Part shown: positions 13,531-21,698 of the stretch, piece by piece | How positions within the stretch are numbered: the stretch's first letter is position 1 | Layout: each line of letters begins with the position of its first letter | NCBI GenBank assembly: GCA_035547835.1 | Contig: DASZTW010000014.1 | Span: 1-64,000 of the forward strand | Source of the DNA: Acidimicrobiales bacterium | Lineage (GTDB): Bacteria > Actinomycetota > Acidimicrobiia > Acidimicrobiales > Iamiaceae | Reading direction: 5' to 3' | DNA: 64,000 nt | Notes under the pieces: generated by a model | What the model was told of the DNA's origin: nothing | Databases searched by the model: none | What the model saw: the letters and a program-made list of their open reading frames with translations, nothing else | Made by a program: the position numbers and the translations under genes

Positions 13531-14165
13531 CCTTCCACGACGACGTGCCCACCGCCGGTGAGGCATCCGGACCGCAGCCGGTCGCCCGCACCGAGCCCTC
13601 GTATCCACCCGACGCCCCGCGCACCACCCGCAGCGCCCACAACCCTCCCCAGACCGAGCCGTTGCTGCGCCGCGCGGCCGATCTCATCGAGTCGGCCCGC
13701 CCCATGCCGTTGTCGTCGTCGGTGATGATCAACAAGGACGAGGTCCTCGAGCTCATCGACGAAGCCGTCGCGCAACTGCCCGAAGAGCTCCGGGCGGCCC
13801 GATGGCTGCTGAAGGAGCGCGAGGAGTTCCTCGACAAGGTCCGCCGCGAGGGCGATGAGATCCTCGACGCGGCTCGCGCCAAGGCCGAACGCATGGTCCA
13901 GCGCACCGAGGTCGTCAAGCAGGCCGAGGCCCGCGCCCGTCGCATCGTGGACGGCGCCGAGGCCGAGTCGCGGCGCATGCGCCACGAGTGTGAGGACTTC
14001 TGCGACCAGAAGCTCGCCAGCTTCGAGATCGTGCTCGACCGCACCATGAAGCTCGTGGCGGCGGGCAGGGAGAAGCTGGCGGGCCCACCGCTCTCGCCGG
14101 CCGAAGACGAGCCGAACGGCGCCGATCGCGAGGGCGCCCCGTTCAACCAGGACGACCTCAGCTGA
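13527..14165 (+). CDS. SepIVA-like coiled-coil protein
   Basis: A 212-residue protein with a Pro-rich disordered N-terminus (about 50 residues), then a long charged helical region (residues about 75-185) rich in Glu, Arg and Ala that should form a coiled coil. The pattern resembles DivIVA/ATP-synthase-b-like proteins. In mycobacteria the gene in this same position, ahead of DUF177 and rnc, is SepIVA, a DivIVA-domain protein needed for septation; orthology here is inferred from synteny and composition, not proved. It overlaps coaD (ATGA). An AGGA about 8 bases before its stop would serve the following gene. Confidence 0.75.
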   Translation: MTFHDDVPTAGEASGPQPVARTEPSYPPDAPRTTRSAHNPPQTEPLLRRAADLIESARPMPLSSSVMINKDEVLELIDEAVAQLPEELRAARWLLKEREEFLDKVRREGDEILDAARAKAERMVQRTEVVKQAEARARRIVDGAEAESRRMRHECEDFCDQKLASFEIVLDRTMKLVAAGREKLAGPPLSPAEDEPNGADREGAPFNQDDLS

Positions 14166-16275: not shown

Positions 16276-16581
16276 GTGCCGGCTGAGACGCATGTCGAAC
16301 GGGGCCCGATCGGGCGTGAGGAGATCTTCGACCTCATCCGCGACCGGTTGGCCGACATCTTGGAGATCGACCCGACGTCGATCTCGGAGGGCGACTCGTT
16401 TGCCGACGACCTCGAAGCCGACTCCCTCGCCTTGATCGAGCTCGTGGAAGCCCTCGAGGAGGAGCTCGGTGAGCGCACCGTCGGCTTCCGCATCGACGAC
16501 GAGGACCTCGAGGATCTGAAGTCGGTCCGCGACGCGGTCGACTACGTGTACGCCCGGGTCGGAGGCGCGTCGGAGGCTTGA
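16276..16581 (+). CDS. acpP: Acyl carrier protein
   Basis: Carries growing acyl chains on a phosphopantetheine arm in fatty-acid synthesis. The modified serine is Ser50 in the conserved EADSLALIELVEALEEELG helix. The full product is 101 residues, somewhat longer than the usual ~80 because of an N-terminal extension (PAETHVERGPIGREE). Two in-frame GTGs exist: 16267 would overlap AAGGAG (16262-16267), while 16276 is spaced 8 bases from it, so 16276 is preferred. The rnc start overlaps its stop (TTGA). The plsX-acpP-rnc order matches the Firmicutes arrangement, without fabD/fabG. Confidence 0.95.
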   Translation: MPAETHVERGPIGREEIFDLIRDRLADILEIDPTSISEGDSFADDLEADSLALIELVEALEEELGERTVGFRIDDEDLEDLKSVRDAVDYVYARVGGASEA

Positions 16582-17342
16582 CACCTCTCACGGACCGGCT
16601 CGGTCACACCTTCGGCGACCCCGCGCTGCTCGAGCGTGCGCTGACCCACCGCTCGTGGTGCGCGGAGCACCCCGGCCACCTCTCCAATGAACGTCTCGAG
16701 TTCCTCGGTGACGCCGTGCTCGGACTGATCGTCGCCGACTACGCCTTTCGGACCTATCCGGACCACGGCGAGGGATGGCTGTCGCGGGCACGGGCCTCGG
16801 TGGTGCGTGCCACTGCGCTGGCCGAGATGGCCACCGACCTCCACCTCGGCGACCACCTGCGGCTCGGCAAGGGAGAAGCGGCCTCGGGCGGGCGGGAGAA
16901 GCCGTCGATCCTCGCCGACTCGCTCGAAGCCGTCATCGGCGCCGTGTACCTCGACGGTGGGTGGAACGAAGCCCGGCGATTCGTGCTCGACCTGCTCCGC
17001 GACCGACTGGAGCAACTCGCCGACGGCGACGCCGACCAGGACCACAAGAGCCGCCTGCAGGAACTGTGCGCCCGCCTGTTCGACCACGGACCCGATTACC
17101 AACTCAGCGAGAAGGGCCCCGAGCACGACAAGGAGTTCCGGGCCGAGGTCTGGGTCGACGGTGGGGTCTGGGGCACCGGCACCGGTCGCACCAAGAAGCA
17201 AGCGGAGCAGGACGCGGCCGAACAGGCGGTCCAGCGGCTCAGCGAAGTCCACGCCCAACATCTCCCACCCGATGTCGTCAACGGCACGTTGGCGCCGGAT
17301 CACGAACCCACCCCCCGACGCGACGAGACGACAGATGCCTGA
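16578..17342 (+). CDS. rnc: Ribonuclease III
   Basis: Double-strand-specific endoribonuclease that processes rRNA precursors and structured mRNAs. It has 254 residues. The catalytic signature NERLEFLGDAVLGL is at about residues 37-50, with the second acidic cluster in DSLEAVIGAVYLDGG. The C-terminal dsRNA-binding domain ends with GTGRTKKQAEQDAAEQAVQ. The start is TTG inside the acpP stop overlap (TTGA), with CGGAGG just before it. A disordered tail extends about 30 residues beyond the binding domain and overlaps the next gene by 8 bases. Confidence 0.96.
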   Translation: MTPLTDRLGHTFGDPALLERALTHRSWCAEHPGHLSNERLEFLGDAVLGLIVADYAFRTYPDHGEGWLSRARASVVRATALAEMATDLHLGDHLRLGKGEAASGGREKPSILADSLEAVIGAVYLDGGWNEARRFVLDLLRDRLEQLADGDADQDHKSRLQELCARLFDHGPDYQLSEKGPEHDKEFRAEVWVDGGVWGTGTGRTKKQAEQDAAEQAVQRLSEVHAQHLPPDVVNGTLAPDHEPTPRRDETTDA

Positions 17343-18174
17343 GCTTCCCGAGATCGAGACCCTCCGCCACGACCTCGAACGTGAGGTCGGCGGCAAGCGG
17401 ATCAAGTCCGTGGAGGTGAACAGCGCCAAGGTCGTGAGCCGCCACGCCAACCGCAAGCAGTTCGCCGGCCACCTCGAAGGGGTGAAGATCAACAGCGTCC
17501 GGCGCCGCGGCTCGATCCTCCTGGTGCCGCTCGACACCGACGAGACCTTGATCATCGACCTGCGCGCGGGCGGGCGGCTGCGGCGGGCTGCGGCCCGCGA
17601 GGAGGTCGAGCCCAAGACCCAGATGGTCGTCACGTTCACCCAGGGCGGTCAGCTCCGCCTCATCGACAAGGCCGACGGCGCGGCGCAGCTGTTCGTCGTC
17701 CCGAGCGACCAGGTCGACGAGGCGCTGCCAGAGCTCGCAGAGCTCGGCGTCGATCCGGTGGCCGAGCCGGTGTCGTGGGTGACCTTCGGCGAACTGTTGC
17801 ACCGCAACAAGTTGAAGCTGAAGAACTTCCTCACCGACCAGACCGTCGTCGCCGGCCTTGGCCCCGTGTACAGCGACGAGATCCTGTACGAAGCGGGGCT
17901 GCGGCCCGATCGCATGTCGAACGAGCTCTCGTCACAGGAGATCCGCCGCCTGTACCGGGCCGTGGTCGAGATGATGCACGAAGGGATGAAGCACCGAGGT
18001 GTCACGCTCGACGACGACGGGTTCCTCGACCTTGCCGGCAAGCCCGGCGGGTTCACCGAACTGCTCAACGTGTACGGGCGCGACGGGCTGGCGTGCCGCC
18101 GGTGCCGGGCGGTGATCTCGAAGCGGAAGATGGCCGGCACCACCGTGTACCTGTGTGAGCAGTGCCAAGTCTGA
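17335..18174 (+). CDS. Divergent Fpg/Nei-family protein with substituted DNA-contact residues
   Basis: Family assignment is clear: 279 residues, N-terminal PELPEIE with the catalytic Pro and Glu, the H2TH region, and a C-terminal zinc finger with C254, C257, C274 and C277. Compared with E. coli Fpg, the Lys57 position is Ser60, the void-filling Met is Ala78, the PRRFG loop reads KADGA (112-116), the Asn of GVGNIY is Pro177, and the zinc-finger Arg is Thr269. These residues contact the flipped base, phosphates and opposite strand. It may therefore have changed specificity or lost glycosylase activity, though Pro1/Glu2 chemistry is retained. It overlaps rnc by 8 bases and occupies the mutM position of the actinobacterial rnc-mutM-smc cluster. 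Confidence 0.85.
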   Translation: MPELPEIETLRHDLEREVGGKRIKSVEVNSAKVVSRHANRKQFAGHLEGVKINSVRRRGSILLVPLDTDETLIIDLRAGGRLRRAAAREEVEPKTQMVVTFTQGGQLRLIDKADGAAQLFVVPSDQVDEALPELAELGVDPVAEPVSWVTFGELLHRNKLKLKNFLTDQTVVAGLGPVYSDEILYEAGLRPDRMSNELSSQEIRRLYRAVVEMMHEGMKHRGVTLDDDGFLDLAGKPGGFTELLNVYGRDGLACRRCRAVISKRKMAGTTVYLCEQCQV

Positions 18175-18230: not shown

Positions 18231-21200
18231 ATGTTCCTGAAATCCCTCACGCTGAAGGGCTTCAAGTCCTTTGCCGACGCGACCGTCCTCGAGCTGCAAC
18301 CCGGGGTGTGCGTGGTCGTCGGTCCGAACGGCAGCGGCAAGTCCAACGTGGTCGACGCGATCGGCTGGGTGCTCGGTGCCCAGGCGCCCTCCGCCGTCCG
18401 ATCCCAGAAGATGGACGACGTCATCTTCGCCGGCACGTCGAAGCGCCAGGCGCTCGGCCGCGCCGAGGTGTCGCTGACGCTCGACAACTCGGCGGGGCTG
18501 CTCCCGATCGAGTTCTCCGAGGTCACCGTCACCCGCACGCTGTTCCGCAGCGGCGACAGCGAGTACGCCATCAACGGCGTGCCGTGCCGGCTGCTCGACA
18601 TCCAAGAGCTGCTGTCGGACTCGGGTGTGGGGCGCCAGCAGCACGTCATCATCTCCCAGGGTCAGATCGACGCCGTGCTCAATGCCCGACCCGAGGACCG
18701 CCGGCTGATCATCGAGGAAGCCGCGGGCGTCTTGAAGTTCCGCCGCCGCAAGGAGAAGGCGGAGCGACGGTTGGCCGCCACCGAAGGCAACCTCACCCGC
18801 GTCCAGGACCTGCTCCGCGAAGTCCGTCGTCAGTTGCGGCCGCTGGAGCGCCAGGCCGACGCGGCCCGCCGCCATGGTCAGGTCGTCGCCGAGCTCCAGG
18901 CGTTGCGGGTGTACGTGGCTGGTCGGGAGCTGAACCAGTTCGAGACCCGTCTCGGCCGCGCCACCGCGCAGCGCCAAGAGCTCGGCGCCGCGGAGCGCGA
19001 CCTCCGCGCGCGGCTCGCCGAGCTCGACACGAACGTGCTCGCGGCGGAGCGGGAGCTGTCGAACCAGGGTGGCGACGACCTCGGCGACGCGCTCGTCCGG
19101 TTCGAGGCGCTGCGGGAGAAGGCCCTCGGGCAGACCGCAGTGCTGGCGGAACGCCGGCGCGGCATCGACCGGGCGCGAGAAGCGTTCGTCGACCAGGCCG
19201 TGGTGGCCACCCTCGAAGCGGAAGCCGCGCGGCTGCGGCGCGACCTCGACGAGCTCGGCCAAGGCGAAGCCGCGCTGGCGGCCAGGTTCGAAGAGCTGGC
19301 CGAGGCCGAAGCCGGTGTCGACGACCAGCGCACCCTGTTCGCCGAGCAGTGGCCCGAGTCGTTGCCGGTGCCGACCAGCCAAGCTGCCGAGGTCCGCGGC
19401 GAGCTGGCGGCCTTGCAGGCCGGGGCCGATCGCACGACCAGCGAGGCGGCCCGCATCCGCACCCGGGTGGCCACCCTGGCCGACAAGCGTGCGCGGTTGA
19501 CCACCGAGGTCGAGGAGCTGCGCACCGAGCACCAGCAGCTCGAGGCCAGCGAGTCGGAGCTCCGGGCCGAGGCGGAGGCGGCCGCCGGCCGTCGACGCGA
19601 GGCCGACGCGGCGCTGGCCGCCGCCGACGACGCGCGCCGCGCGGCCGAAGGCGGGCACCACCGGTGGACGGCACGCGCCGATGCCCTGGCGCAAGCCCTC
19701 GAGTCAGCCCGGGCGCGAGCCGGAGCGGAGCAGTTGGCCGGCGTCGACGGTGTGGTGGGGACGTTGCTCGACCTGGTCGCGATCGACGACGGATGGGAGC
19801 TGGCGTTCGAGGCTGCGGCGGGCGCGGCCATCGGCTCGGTGGTCGTCGACGACGTGGCCGCCGGTCGGCGCGCGCTCGACGCGCTGCACCACGCAGGGTC
19901 GCCGGGCGCCGTGCTGGCGCTGGGCGCCGCGCTCGAGCCCGCTGGTGGTGGATCGGGGTCGACCCTTCCCGGCACGCCGCTGCGTCGCCACGTCCGAGCG
20001 ATGCGGCCCGACGTCGAGCGGCTGCTCGATGCGCTGCTCGCGTCGGCCGTGGTGGTCGACGACTGGACTGCGGGCATCGATCTCGTGCTGGTGCACCCTG
20101 GCGCCGTCGCCGTCACCCGCGCCGGGGATCACATCGCCAGCACAGGTTGGCGTCTCGGTGGTGGCGGCACCGGCGCCACCGGCGCAGCGCTCGACGAGGC
20201 CTGCCGCCAAGCCGAACAGGCGGCCGATGCGGTGGCCACCAGCCGGGCCGCCCTCCAGAACGCGCGCGACGCTGCAGCGCACGCGCAGGAGGAGGCAGCC
20301 CAGCGGGCCAAGGCGTTCGACGCGGCTGCGCACCGCCTGCGGGCCATCGCCGACACGCTGCCTCGTCTCGAACGCGAGCTGGCCGACGGTCAGCGGGAAG
20401 CGGAGGCGCTCGAAGCGCAGCTCGCCGAGTCGACCCGCGGCGCCGAGCGCGCCGCCACCCGCTTGGGTGAGCTCCAGATCCTCCTGCCTGAGCTCGAAGC
20501 CGCCGAGGCCAGAGCCAGCGAGCTGGCCACCGCCAAGGCGGAGGCCAAGGCCGGGCTCGAGGAGAGCTCGTCGGCGGTCGCCGCACGGCGCGCCGACCTC
20601 GACCGCCAGCGGGCCGGGATGGTGGAGCGCCGTGACTTCCTGCATGGCCGGTTGGTCGAGGTCGAACAACGACTCGAGCACCAGCGCGACGCACGGGAGG
20701 CGGCCGCGACGCGTCGCGCCGAGCTCGATCAGCAACAGCTCGCGGTCGACCGGCTCGCCGCCTGGGTGGCCACGCGCGAACAAGCCATCGACAGCGAGCT
20801 GACCGGCCTGCGCGAGCGCCGGCGCCGTCAGTCGGAAGCGGCGCGCGCGGCCGCTGCCCGGCTCGACACGCTGCGCAAGGAGCGCGCCGAGGCCGAGCGT
20901 GAGCTCGAGGCGCACCGCGAGCGTCAGCGCCGCGCCGAGCTCGACGAGACCGAGCTGCGGCTCCGCTTGGAGCAAGCGGTCGAGTCGTGCCGCCGCGACC
21001 TCGACACCGAGCCGTCAGCAGCGATGGCCGCAGCCGAGCCCGAGCTGCCCGAGGGCACTTCGGCGGCAGCCCGCATCCGCGAGCTCGAGCGCGACTTGCG
21101 GATCATGGGTCCGATCAACCCGCTCGCGCTCGAGGAGTTCGAAGCGCTCCAGGAGCGGCACGTCTTCCTGGAAGGGCAGCTCGACGACGTCAAGACCTCG

Positions 21201-21698
21201 CGTCGTGAGCTCGCCAAGGTCATCAAAGCGATCGACGCCGAGATCGTCAGCGTGTTCGCCGCCGCCTACGCCGATGTCGAGTCCAACTTCCGCGACTTGT
21301 TCTCCACGCTGTTCCCCGGTGGCAGCGGCCGGTTGCGGCTCACCGAGCCCGACAACTTGCTCGACACGGGTGTGGAGGTCGAGGCCCGGCCGTCGGGCAA
21401 GAACGTCCGCAAGCTGTCGCTGCTGTCGGGTGGCGAACGTTCGCTCACCGCGCTGGCGTACCTGTTCGCCGTCTTCCGCGCACGGCCGTCGCCCTTCTAC
21501 GTGATGGACGAGGTGGAAGCGGCGCTCGACGACGTGAACCTGCACCGCTTCCTCGACTTGGTGGCCGAGTTCCGCGCCGAGGCGCAGCTGATCATCGTGA
21601 GCCACCAGAAGCGCACGATGGAAGCGGCCGACGTGCTGTACGGCGTCACGATGCAGCCCGGTGGCTCGTCTCGGGTGTTGTCCGAAAGAGCGTCCTGA
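18231..21698 (+). CDS. smc: Chromosome segregation protein SMC
   Basis: ATPase that loads onto DNA with ScpA/ScpB and organises the chromosome. It has 1155 residues. Walker A is VVVGPNGSGKSN near residue 28, followed by two long coiled coils (about 160-500 and 660-1000). They flank a hinge with the GVDGVVGTLLDLV start near residue 505 and conserved glycines. The C-terminal signature LLSGGERSLTALAYLFAV and Walker B YVMDEVEAALDD are intact. The 56-base gap before the ATG lacks a strong promoter, so co-transcription with the upstream gene is likely. In most relatives ftsY follows directly; here a block of six other genes intervenes. Confidence 0.97.
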   Translation: MFLKSLTLKGFKSFADATVLELQPGVCVVVGPNGSGKSNVVDAIGWVLGAQAPSAVRSQKMDDVIFAGTSKRQALGRAEVSLTLDNSAGLLPIEFSEVTVTRTLFRSGDSEYAINGVPCRLLDIQELLSDSGVGRQQHVIISQGQIDAVLNARPEDRRLIIEEAAGVLKFRRRKEKAERRLAATEGNLTRVQDLLREVRRQLRPLERQADAARRHGQVVAELQALRVYVAGRELNQFETRLGRATAQRQELGAAERDLRARLAELDTNVLAAERELSNQGGDDLGDALVRFEALREKALGQTAVLAERRRGIDRAREAFVDQAVVATLEAEAARLRRDLDELGQGEAALAARFEELAEAEAGVDDQRTLFAEQWPESLPVPTSQAAEVRGELAALQAGADRTTSEAARIRTRVATLADKRARLTTEVEELRTEHQQLEASESELRAEAEAAAGRRREADAALAAADDARRAAEGGHHRWTARADALAQALESARARAGAEQLAGVDGVVGTLLDLVAIDDGWELAFEAAAGAAIGSVVVDDVAAGRRALDALHHAGSPGAVLALGAALEPAGGGSGSTLPGTPLRRHVRAMRPDVERLLDALLASAVVVDDWTAGIDLVLVHPGAVAVTRAGDHIASTGWRLGGGGTGATGAALDEACRQAEQAADAVATSRAALQNARDAAAHAQEEAAQRAKAFDAAAHRLRAIADTLPRLERELADGQREAEALEAQLAESTRGAERAATRLGELQILLPELEAAEARASELATAKAEAKAGLEESSSAVAARRADLDRQRAGMVERRDFLHGRLVEVEQRLEHQRDAREAAATRRAELDQQQLAVDRLAAWVATREQAIDSELTGLRERRRRQSEAARAAAARLDTLRKERAEAERELEAHRERQRRAELDETELRLRLEQAVESCRRDLDTEPSAAMAAAEPELPEGTSAAARIRELERDLRIMGPINPLALEEFEALQERHVFLEGQLDDVKTSRRELAKVIKAIDAEIVSVFAAAYADVESNFRDLFSTLFPGGSGRLRLTEPDNLLDTGVEVEARPSGKNVRKLSLLSGGERSLTALAYLFAVFRARPSPFYVMDEVEAALDDVNLHRFLDLVAEFRAEAQLIIVSHQKRTMEAADVLYGVTMQPGGSSRVLSERAS

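Follow-up and report, generated by a model that had tools for sequence, protein, structure and literature searches.

The gene between rnc and smc in an Acidimicrobiales bacterium of the family Iamiaceae encodes a homolog of the DNA repair glycosylase Fpg/MutM from which most residues that contact a lesion have been replaced. This raises the question of whether the protein is still an enzyme and, if it is not, what it has been kept for. An earlier note, made from the sequence alone, listed the replaced residues, held that the pattern was not decay, and suggested a new substrate or a structural role. Here, we evaluate these claims using the locus itself, a stretch of 64,000 nucleotides (GCA_035547835.1, contig DASZTW010000014.1, positions 1 to 64,000; hereafter the window), and the corresponding genes of related genomes.

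An Fpg-family gene between rnc and smc

The gene is an intact open reading frame that encodes 279 amino acids from an ATG start (17335-18174, forward strand). Its assignment to the mutM slot was confirmed by the coordinates and Pfam identities of its neighbors: rnc (RNase III) occupies positions 16578-17342 and smc positions 18231-21698, both on the forward strand. The ATG of the slot gene lies inside the last 8 nt of rnc, with which the gene overlaps by 8 nt, and smc starts 56 nt past its stop codon. Pfam identified cytidylyltransferase-like (coaD-type), YceD, and PlsX-type genes farther upstream of rnc, and no RNA family reached the gathering threshold between positions 14000 and 24000 of the window. 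Mycobacteria also have the rnc-fpg order according to the accessible text of PMC2734929, which in addition describes Rv0944 of M. tuberculosis as a truncated Fpg-like paralog.

The slot protein of the window scores above the cut-offs of PF01149 and PF06831 but just below that of zf-FPG_IleRS (20.9 versus 21.3 bits). It passes the equivalog cut-off of the TIGR00577 ‘fpg’ model (218.6 versus 203.3 bits) and falls narrowly under that of NF002211 (210.8 versus 212). Alignments made with phmmer to MutM proteins with solved structures run end to end, the best being that to B. stearothermophilus MutM (1l1t; E = 1.1e-45). In an AlphaFold2 model built from a 40-sequence alignment (pLDDT 94.0, pTM 0.89), residues 2-279 superpose on residues 2-274 of MutM 1r2y, a complex with 8-oxoG (Z 34.1, rmsd 2.3, 273 aligned; Foldseek TM 0.89). 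The fold is predicted to be intact, with an Fpg N-terminal domain, an H2TH domain (residues 137-224; 17743-18006, forward strand; Pfam and model), and a zinc ribbon arranged as in full-length MutM. Structure prediction, which the earlier note had proposed as a check, thus returned a MutM fold, and because the phmmer alignment and the superposition agree, the register of the residues discussed below is safe.

Lesion residues and phylogeny of the slot copies

Five residues of B. stearothermophilus (Bst) MutM were taken as diagnostic, namely K60, M77, R112, F114, and N174, and a slot copy retaining at most two of them was termed dead. Residue counts refer to a non-redundant set of 73 dead and 46 canonical slot copies, from which locus L025 and five duplicates or near-duplicates (dead) and two copies (canonical) were left out.

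In the window, Pro2-Glu3 of the catalytic N-terminus (17338-17343; all features in this paragraph are on the forward strand) and the four cysteines of the zinc ribbon (C254, C257, C274, and C277; 18094-18165) are kept, as the earlier note had observed with the first two residues counted as Pro1 and Glu2. The replacements that it had listed are all present in the sequence as well. Ser60 replaces the active-site lysine (Bst K60; 17512-17514), Ala78 the intercalating methionine (Bst M77; 17566-17568), K-A-D-G-A at residues 112-116 the R112/F114 void-filling loop (17668-17682), Pro177 an asparagine (Bst N174; 17863-17865), and Thr269, within the zinc ribbon, an arginine (Bst R264). A further change, Asp75 in place of a histidine (Bst H74; 17557-17559), was absent from that list. 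The void-filling positions of Met, Arg, and Phe are occupied by A78, A113, and A116. The slot protein therefore shares with Fpg/MutM (TIGR00577; 1r2y, 1l1t) its predicted whole-length fold, domain order, and position after rnc, and in the window also the N-terminal Pro-Glu and the zinc cysteines, but it lacks the Lys, the His, the intercalating Met, the Arg/Phe loop, the Asn, and the zinc-finger Arg.

None of the five diagnostic residues is kept in 66 of the 73 dead copies, one is kept in six, and two are kept in one, whereas four of the five are present in all 46 canonical copies and N174 in 45; L053 is a canonical slot copy with Ser at N174. By position, the dead copies retain K60 in 4 cases (69 are without it), M77 and F114 in none, R112 in 1, and N174 in 3 (70 are without it, and 37 have Pro there). 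His at position 74 is kept in 3 copies and replaced by Asp in 35, and Arg264 is kept in 21 and lost in 52. The N-terminal proline persists in 16 and is lost in 57, while Glu3 is found in 63/73 and Glu6 in 73/73. The intercalating and lesion-loop positions vary freely across the 73 copies. Mean net charge, a crude proxy, is -0.3 in 44 dead copies versus +5.7 in 68 canonical copies.

The four-Cys zinc set is broken in 37 of the 73 dead copies, yet C274 and Q278 are retained in all 73. One copy without the set (L096) is still predicted by AlphaFold2 to fold (pLDDT 91.8; hairpin blocks 88-92). Zinc ligands have likewise been lost from the zincless finger of NEIL1, which is an active glycosylase, unlike the slot protein as we interpret it. 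The residue at the N-terminus is Ala or Pro in 27 of the 36 dead copies with four zinc cysteines and Leu, Ile, or Phe in 24 of the 37 without them; the initiator methionine is normally not removed before Leu, Ile, or Phe.

These N-termini bear on whether the slot protein might be a changed but catalytic glycosylase or lyase, in which the N-terminal amine and Glu2 (Glu3 when methionine is counted) act on a new base or AP-site substrate through other contacts. The strongest argument that some chemistry remains is the retention of Glu3 in 63 of the 73 copies, and the Ala or Pro terminus of most four-Cys copies is compatible with a working amine. A Nei or NEIL enzyme with an alternative N-terminal nucleophile nonetheless needs both an amine and the active-site lysine, which the slot protein lacks; here, we take K51 of M. 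smegmatis Nei2 to be the counterpart of Bst K60. As described in the accessible portion of PMC11323726, Nei2 K51A is inactive as both glycosylase and AP lyase and E3A loses glycosylase activity, whereas P2A loses only lyase activity and still acts as a glycosylase on 5-hydroxyuracil, and NEIL3 has Val at the position of the N-terminal proline. A substituted proline is thus tolerable on this precedent, but the loss of Lys60 from 69 of the 73 copies, the Leu, Ile, or Phe termini, and the free variation of the lesion loop make a new-substrate enzyme unlikely.

The slot copy could be read in 20 of the 24 genomes of the window's own family (its own included), and the lesion residues are missing from every one of these copies, with Ala at the catalytic-proline position in 14; the other four assemblies, each in 390-560 contigs, yielded no slot copy, one of them having a contig-end fragment. 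The 37 genomes taken from families of the order other than this one yielded 36 readable slot copies, of which 26 were canonical and 10 dead or part-dead. A further 80 named loci, which were fetched with an alignment of dead copies, comprised 32 dead and 48 canonical copies. Slot copies across the Acidimicrobiales are thus either canonical or stripped, with L025 the sole clear intermediate. Named members with a dead copy include Aquihabitans sp. G128 (L077, complete genome), Candidatus Microthrix parvicella RN1 (L099, from the record title), and EGI L10123 (L102), an isolate for which an abstract gives the name Salinilacustristhrix flava. NCBI places Aquihabitans in the Iamiaceae, Acidimicrobiales.

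In a tree reconstructed without the diagnostic columns, 45 dead copies formed a single clade (100/98), as did 78 dead copies in a larger tree reconstructed in the same way (SH-aLRT 97); the phylogeny proposed in the earlier note thus recovers a distinct clade. Trees and counts variously omit rows that were partial, fragmentary, or very distant (L026, L039, L056, L058, L068, and L070) as well as other paralogs (L003, L004, and L072-L074). In L025, from genome G027, the Pro, Glu, Lys, His, and Arg112 positions are unchanged, whereas Met, Phe, Asn, and Arg264 are gone; this copy branches beside the canonical copy L029 in both trees without diagnostic columns. A placement of L025 inside the dead clade (98/89) was obtained only with the diagnostic columns kept, and it was dropped once these were removed. 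Collectively, the alignments and trees indicate that lesion residues were lost once in the main Acidimicrobiales clade and that L025 represents a second, partial loss outside of it. The residue pattern lies beyond chance, since it is common to the whole clade, and sequencing error or local decay was ruled out because this state and an open frame are common to many genomes.

A second Fpg in most genomes with dead slot copies

The earlier note had also recommended searching the genome for a second, canonical mutM, and one was found. PF01149 occurs at four places in the window's genome: the slot gene, L001, L003, and L004. L001, hereafter Fpg-B, is a second canonical Fpg (contig C5, 383987-384796; signature PEEKHMRFNYRR; four zinc cysteines) that is 35% identical to the window slot protein. 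It belongs to the same family but differs in that all of its diagnostic residues are kept and in that Fpg-B proteins form a branch of their own (100/99 in the tree that kept the diagnostic columns), the closest grouping of which is with Bst MutM and not with the slot proteins. An origin of Fpg-B as a recent duplicate of the slot gene is unsupported given this separate long branch. Relatives of Fpg-B elsewhere in the phylum share 48-57% identity with it. The remaining two, L003 and L004, belong to different Fpg/Nei types and are not canonical Fpg-B. L003, located elsewhere in the genome, is 34% identical to the window slot protein over residues 47-278 and resembles it in having altered N174 and R264 positions (PEEKHQGKRHAY), but unlike it retains Pro, Glu, Lys, and His. 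The Nei-type rows L004, L181, and L182 carry Lys in the K60 column.

Fpg-B and dead slot copies are strongly associated in three sets of genomes, the counts of which are not independent and overstate the association because the link mostly reflects one historical event. In the first set, in which Fpg-B was called at an identity of at least 54%, it was present in 22 of 24 own-family genomes and 9 of 37 other-family genomes. Slot copies were read from eight of these nine and all eight are dead, that of G034 being cut by a contig end. Fpg-B was found in none of the 26 first-set genomes with a canonical slot copy, and two genomes with a dead or part-dead copy (G039 and G027) are also without it. 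The second set consisted of the 49 genomes, many shared with the first, that contain 50 of the 80 named loci (32/32 dead and 18/48 canonical). Fpg-B was detected in 26 of 31 dead-slot genomes, with a contig-end fragment in G106 and none in G068, G080, G087, and G088, and in 0 of 18 genomes with a canonical slot copy. For the third set, 34 genomes with and 36 without Fpg-B were picked by family and not randomly, and the slot copy was obtained from 62 of the 70 (none from G426, G546, G406, G438, G447, G451, G396, and G397, the last two of which lie outside the order). All 32 genomes with Fpg-B had a dead slot copy, and the 30 without comprised 27 canonical and 3 dead. Nine of these 62 sequences repeat ones read earlier; among the 53 fresh sequences, those from genomes with Fpg-B were all dead (30/30) and the 23 from genomes without it were 22 canonical and 1 dead.

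Dead-clade genomes without a detectable Fpg-B are G039, G019, G022 (the same as G068), G080, G087, G088, and G412, of which G019 and G022 are 79% and 74% complete, respectively. In the basal group of L094, L102, and L103, the slot copy is dead and Fpg-B is absent, which suggests either that the loss of lesion residues came before the gain of Fpg-B or that Fpg-B was lost later. At least G087 (L171) and G022/G068 (L169/L170) have a further Fpg-like gene, marked by a Met-Arg-Leu signature, which might serve where Fpg-B is absent. Fpg-B was present in 127 of the 298 genomes sampled from the order; used as a proxy, this frequency suggests that the dead clade accounts for about 40% of the order.

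The score of the window protein against TIGR00577, together with its Pro-Glu and four cysteines, is what would be expected of an ordinary working MutM with unusual residues. However, the protein misses NF002211, if narrowly, its residues have been lost clade-wide, and a canonical copy is present in the same genome. Moreover, single mutants of E. coli Fpg at three of the replaced contacts (R108, N168, and R258) are already impaired on 8-oxoG, to differing degrees and with R258Q the least impaired of the R258 mutants, in the accessible text of PMC4737139. An ordinary MutM is scarcely credible in light of these observations.

Constraint on the slot protein and its probable role

Values of dN/dS, estimated with a Nei-Gojobori script, ranged from 0.07 to 0.45 in 61 non-independent pairs of dead slot copies (at least 72% identity, dS < 2.5). 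Those of canonical slot copies were lower (0.01-0.30; 33 pairs), and those of Fpg-B, from 32 more distant pairs, were similar to those of the dead copies (0.17-0.57). Some relaxation is real, since the dead copies exceed the canonical slot copies, and the substitution rates indicate that constraint on the dead copies is weaker than that on the working enzyme, but clear.

Mean identity was 47% among the 73 dead copies versus 56% among the 46 canonical copies, the dead set being the more divergent, and 39 residues occur in at least 95% of the dead copies. Several of these sites are stricter than in the canonical copies: K24, K51, and T102 are each found in 72/73 dead copies and R204 and K219 in 73/73, versus 61, 61, 57, 80, and 63% of canonical copies (n = 46), respectively, with the T102 and R204 comparison biased in this set because the scan patterns lay in residues 101-108 and 200-208. 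The per-site comparison was repeated on loci fetched without these peptide patterns, at first 16 dead and 19 canonical and later 35 and 27. In the later set, dead and canonical frequencies were 34/35 and 18/27 for K24, 34/35 and 16/27 for K51, 34/35 and 13/27 for T102, 35/35 and 21/27 for R204, and 35/35 and 17/27 for K219. E202 and R205 are, like R204 and K219, invariant among the 73 dead copies in the H2TH helix (residues 200-219), and R256 is present in 70. Conversely, 19 positions conserved in at least 95% of canonical copies drop below 35% in dead copies, and the lesion contacts are among them. In the model, residues 102-105 form a turn between strands 95-101 and 106-111, at the opposite end from the lesion loop (112-116); given this strand order, the conserved 102-105 patch should lie away from the lesion site.

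Gene order has been kept as well. The slot copy adjoins rnc and/or smc in 61 of 62 later-read cases, the remaining one being at a contig end. The 8-nt overlap with rnc recurs in 52 of the 62 dead rows of an earlier set, duplicates counted, and in 17 of the 35 dead rows of the later one, and smc is close downstream of dead fpg in most. The neighborhood does not point to a partner, since canonical fpg also has rnc and smc as neighbors. In some genomes, dead and canonical alike, fpg and smc are separated by an extra 1-2 kb; visual comparison of the open reading frames of six such loci revealed no gene common to them.

The overlap with rnc, the proximity of smc, and the elevated dN/dS would all be compatible with a decaying gene, the protein of which is useless and the frame of which is kept only because it couples translation from rnc to smc. 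Yet dN/dS is well under 1, no stop codons were found inside dead copies among the matches listed, and 39 residues remain nearly invariant at 47% mean identity, some of them held more strictly than in canonical orthologs. Decay of this kind is thus highly improbable, and the claim of the earlier note that the pattern is not decay is upheld by the open frames, the retained operon place, and the dN/dS of the 61 close pairs.

The conserved basic residues (R204, R205, K219, and R256) and the retained H2TH domain and C-terminal hairpin could also belong to a non-catalytic sensor of lesions or DNA structure that passes damage to other repair pathways, as the alkyltransferase-like protein ATL does for O6-alkylguanine. 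Like the slot protein, ATL is a repair-enzyme homolog, in its case of an alkyltransferase, that was kept after its catalytic residue was lost, and it retains residues for DNA binding and base flipping (accessible text of PMC10779285). DNA binding could survive in the slot protein, since KM hardly changed in the E. coli Fpg R108, N168, and R258 mutants (accessible text of PMC4737139) and loss of these contacts therefore need not mean loss of binding. However, whereas ATLs bind DNA and flip the base, the dead clade has lost the corresponding lesion contacts (Met, the Arg/Phe loop, Asn, and in 52/73 copies Arg264), and the change of His to Asp in 35/73 copies and a mean net charge near zero further argue against a sensor, which we consider distinctly unlikely.

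The interpretation that we favor, with a probability of roughly two in three, is that the slot protein is a conserved pseudo-glycosylase that gave way to Fpg-B in repair and was retained for a role that involves no catalysis and probably consists in binding a partner. Such a role is favored because most of the lesion residues are gone together, because the intercalating positions vary freely, and because charge falls, in contrast to the DNA-binding ATLs. In this scenario, the old chromosomal MutM between rnc and smc would have lost lesion recognition and catalysis once, early in the clade, and would have been retained thereafter with its Fpg fold, N-terminal helix, H2TH helix, and C-terminal hairpin. 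In most of the clade, 8-oxoguanine would probably be excised by Fpg-B, a canonical Fpg only distantly related to the slot protein, which itself most likely does no chemistry but acts as a binding or scaffold protein. Binding would involve conserved regions outside the lesion contacts, namely the H2TH helix (200-219), the 102-105 turn, K24/K51, and R256, C274, and Q278 of the hairpin, and SMC, RNase III, or a repair protein are examples of candidate partners. The more specific proposal, that a MutM pseudo-enzyme of the rnc-smc cluster binds its partner via the helix and C-terminal hairpin while Fpg-B performs the chemistry in most genomes, is tentative and has a little less than an even chance of being correct.

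Of the two roles offered in the earlier note, a structural, non-catalytic one fits better and a new substrate is the less likely, since K60, N174, the N-terminal Pro, M77, and F114 have been lost from most or all of the 73 copies and mean charge drops from +5.7 to -0.3. Retention of Glu3 and Glu6 would be odd without chemistry, although both residues could have a structural part instead. The presence of Pro2, Glu3, and four cysteines in the window protein also runs against a pseudo-enzyme.

Conserved pseudo-enzymes occur among kinases, and in the open literature that we searched, the coverage of which was incomplete, no report of one in the Fpg/Nei family was found. Annotation is affected as well, since the score of the window protein exceeds the TIGR00577 equivalog threshold and genome surveys of oxidative repair could thus be counting the wrong gene. 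Aquihabitans sp. G128 and the isolate Salinilacustristhrix flava are among the relatives in which the proposed role could be tested. If our interpretation is correct, a base-excision-repair glycosylase would have become a conserved non-enzymatic protein in about 40% of an actinobacterial order (with Fpg-B as the proxy), and would represent a clean case of an enzyme that was replaced and then reused rather than lost.

Zinc ligands and annotation of the slot copies

Among the 73 non-redundant dead slot copies of the Acidimicrobiales clade (Fpg/MutM homologs between rnc and smc that keep at most two of K60, M77, R112, F114, and N174), zinc ligands 2 and 4 are replaced in 37 members (e.g., L096, L151, and L098) and ligand 1 in 36. 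The third ligand, C274 in the window protein, is retained in all 73. Its retention even in the members whose other ligands have been replaced suggests that C274 may have a role other than binding zinc.

The window protein (17335-18174, + strand) scores above the TIGR00577 equivalog cut-off for Fpg despite lacking the active-site lysine; annotation will therefore probably label its gene a functional mutM.

Arrangement of the rnc-fpg-smc locus

Approximately 1-2 kb separates fpg from smc at the dead loci L077, L078, L104, L094, and L085, and also at the canonical loci L091 and L092. Because such gaps occur in some genomes, the fpg-smc linkage is looser than that between rnc and fpg. Two similar dead slot copies (L095 and L100; 85% identical) were identified in one metagenome bin, G081, which is perhaps mixed.

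Partial loss and other Fpg-like types

The slot copy L025 has lost part of its lesion residues separately from the main clade, retaining Pro, Glu, Lys, His, and Arg112 while Met, Phe, Asn, and Arg264 are gone. Fpg-B, the second, canonical Fpg of most dead-slot genomes, was not found in its genome (G027). L025 possibly represents an early stage of the same change that the dead clade has undergone.

Another Fpg-family branch comprises L003 (G000:C2:168233-169015, in the window's own genome), L173, L174, L179, and L184, which share the signature PEEKHQG(K/R) and have altered lesion residues with Pro, Glu, Lys, and His retained. The Asn174 position is Arg, within G[LV]GR[RM]LANE, and the Arg264 position is Tyr in four of the five, L184 being unread there.

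In genome G087, a two-piece Fpg-like match (G087:C28:219099-219965), its pieces separated by approximately 78 unmatched bases, lies within one 604-codon open frame, whose product would be either a fusion of greater length or an Fpg-like protein interrupted by an insert.

A third Fpg-like type, in which Met-Arg-Leu replaces Met-Arg-Phe (L169-L171, L176-L178, and L183), is present in genomes with and without Fpg-B, and is a candidate that may supply 8-oxoG repair in those without it.
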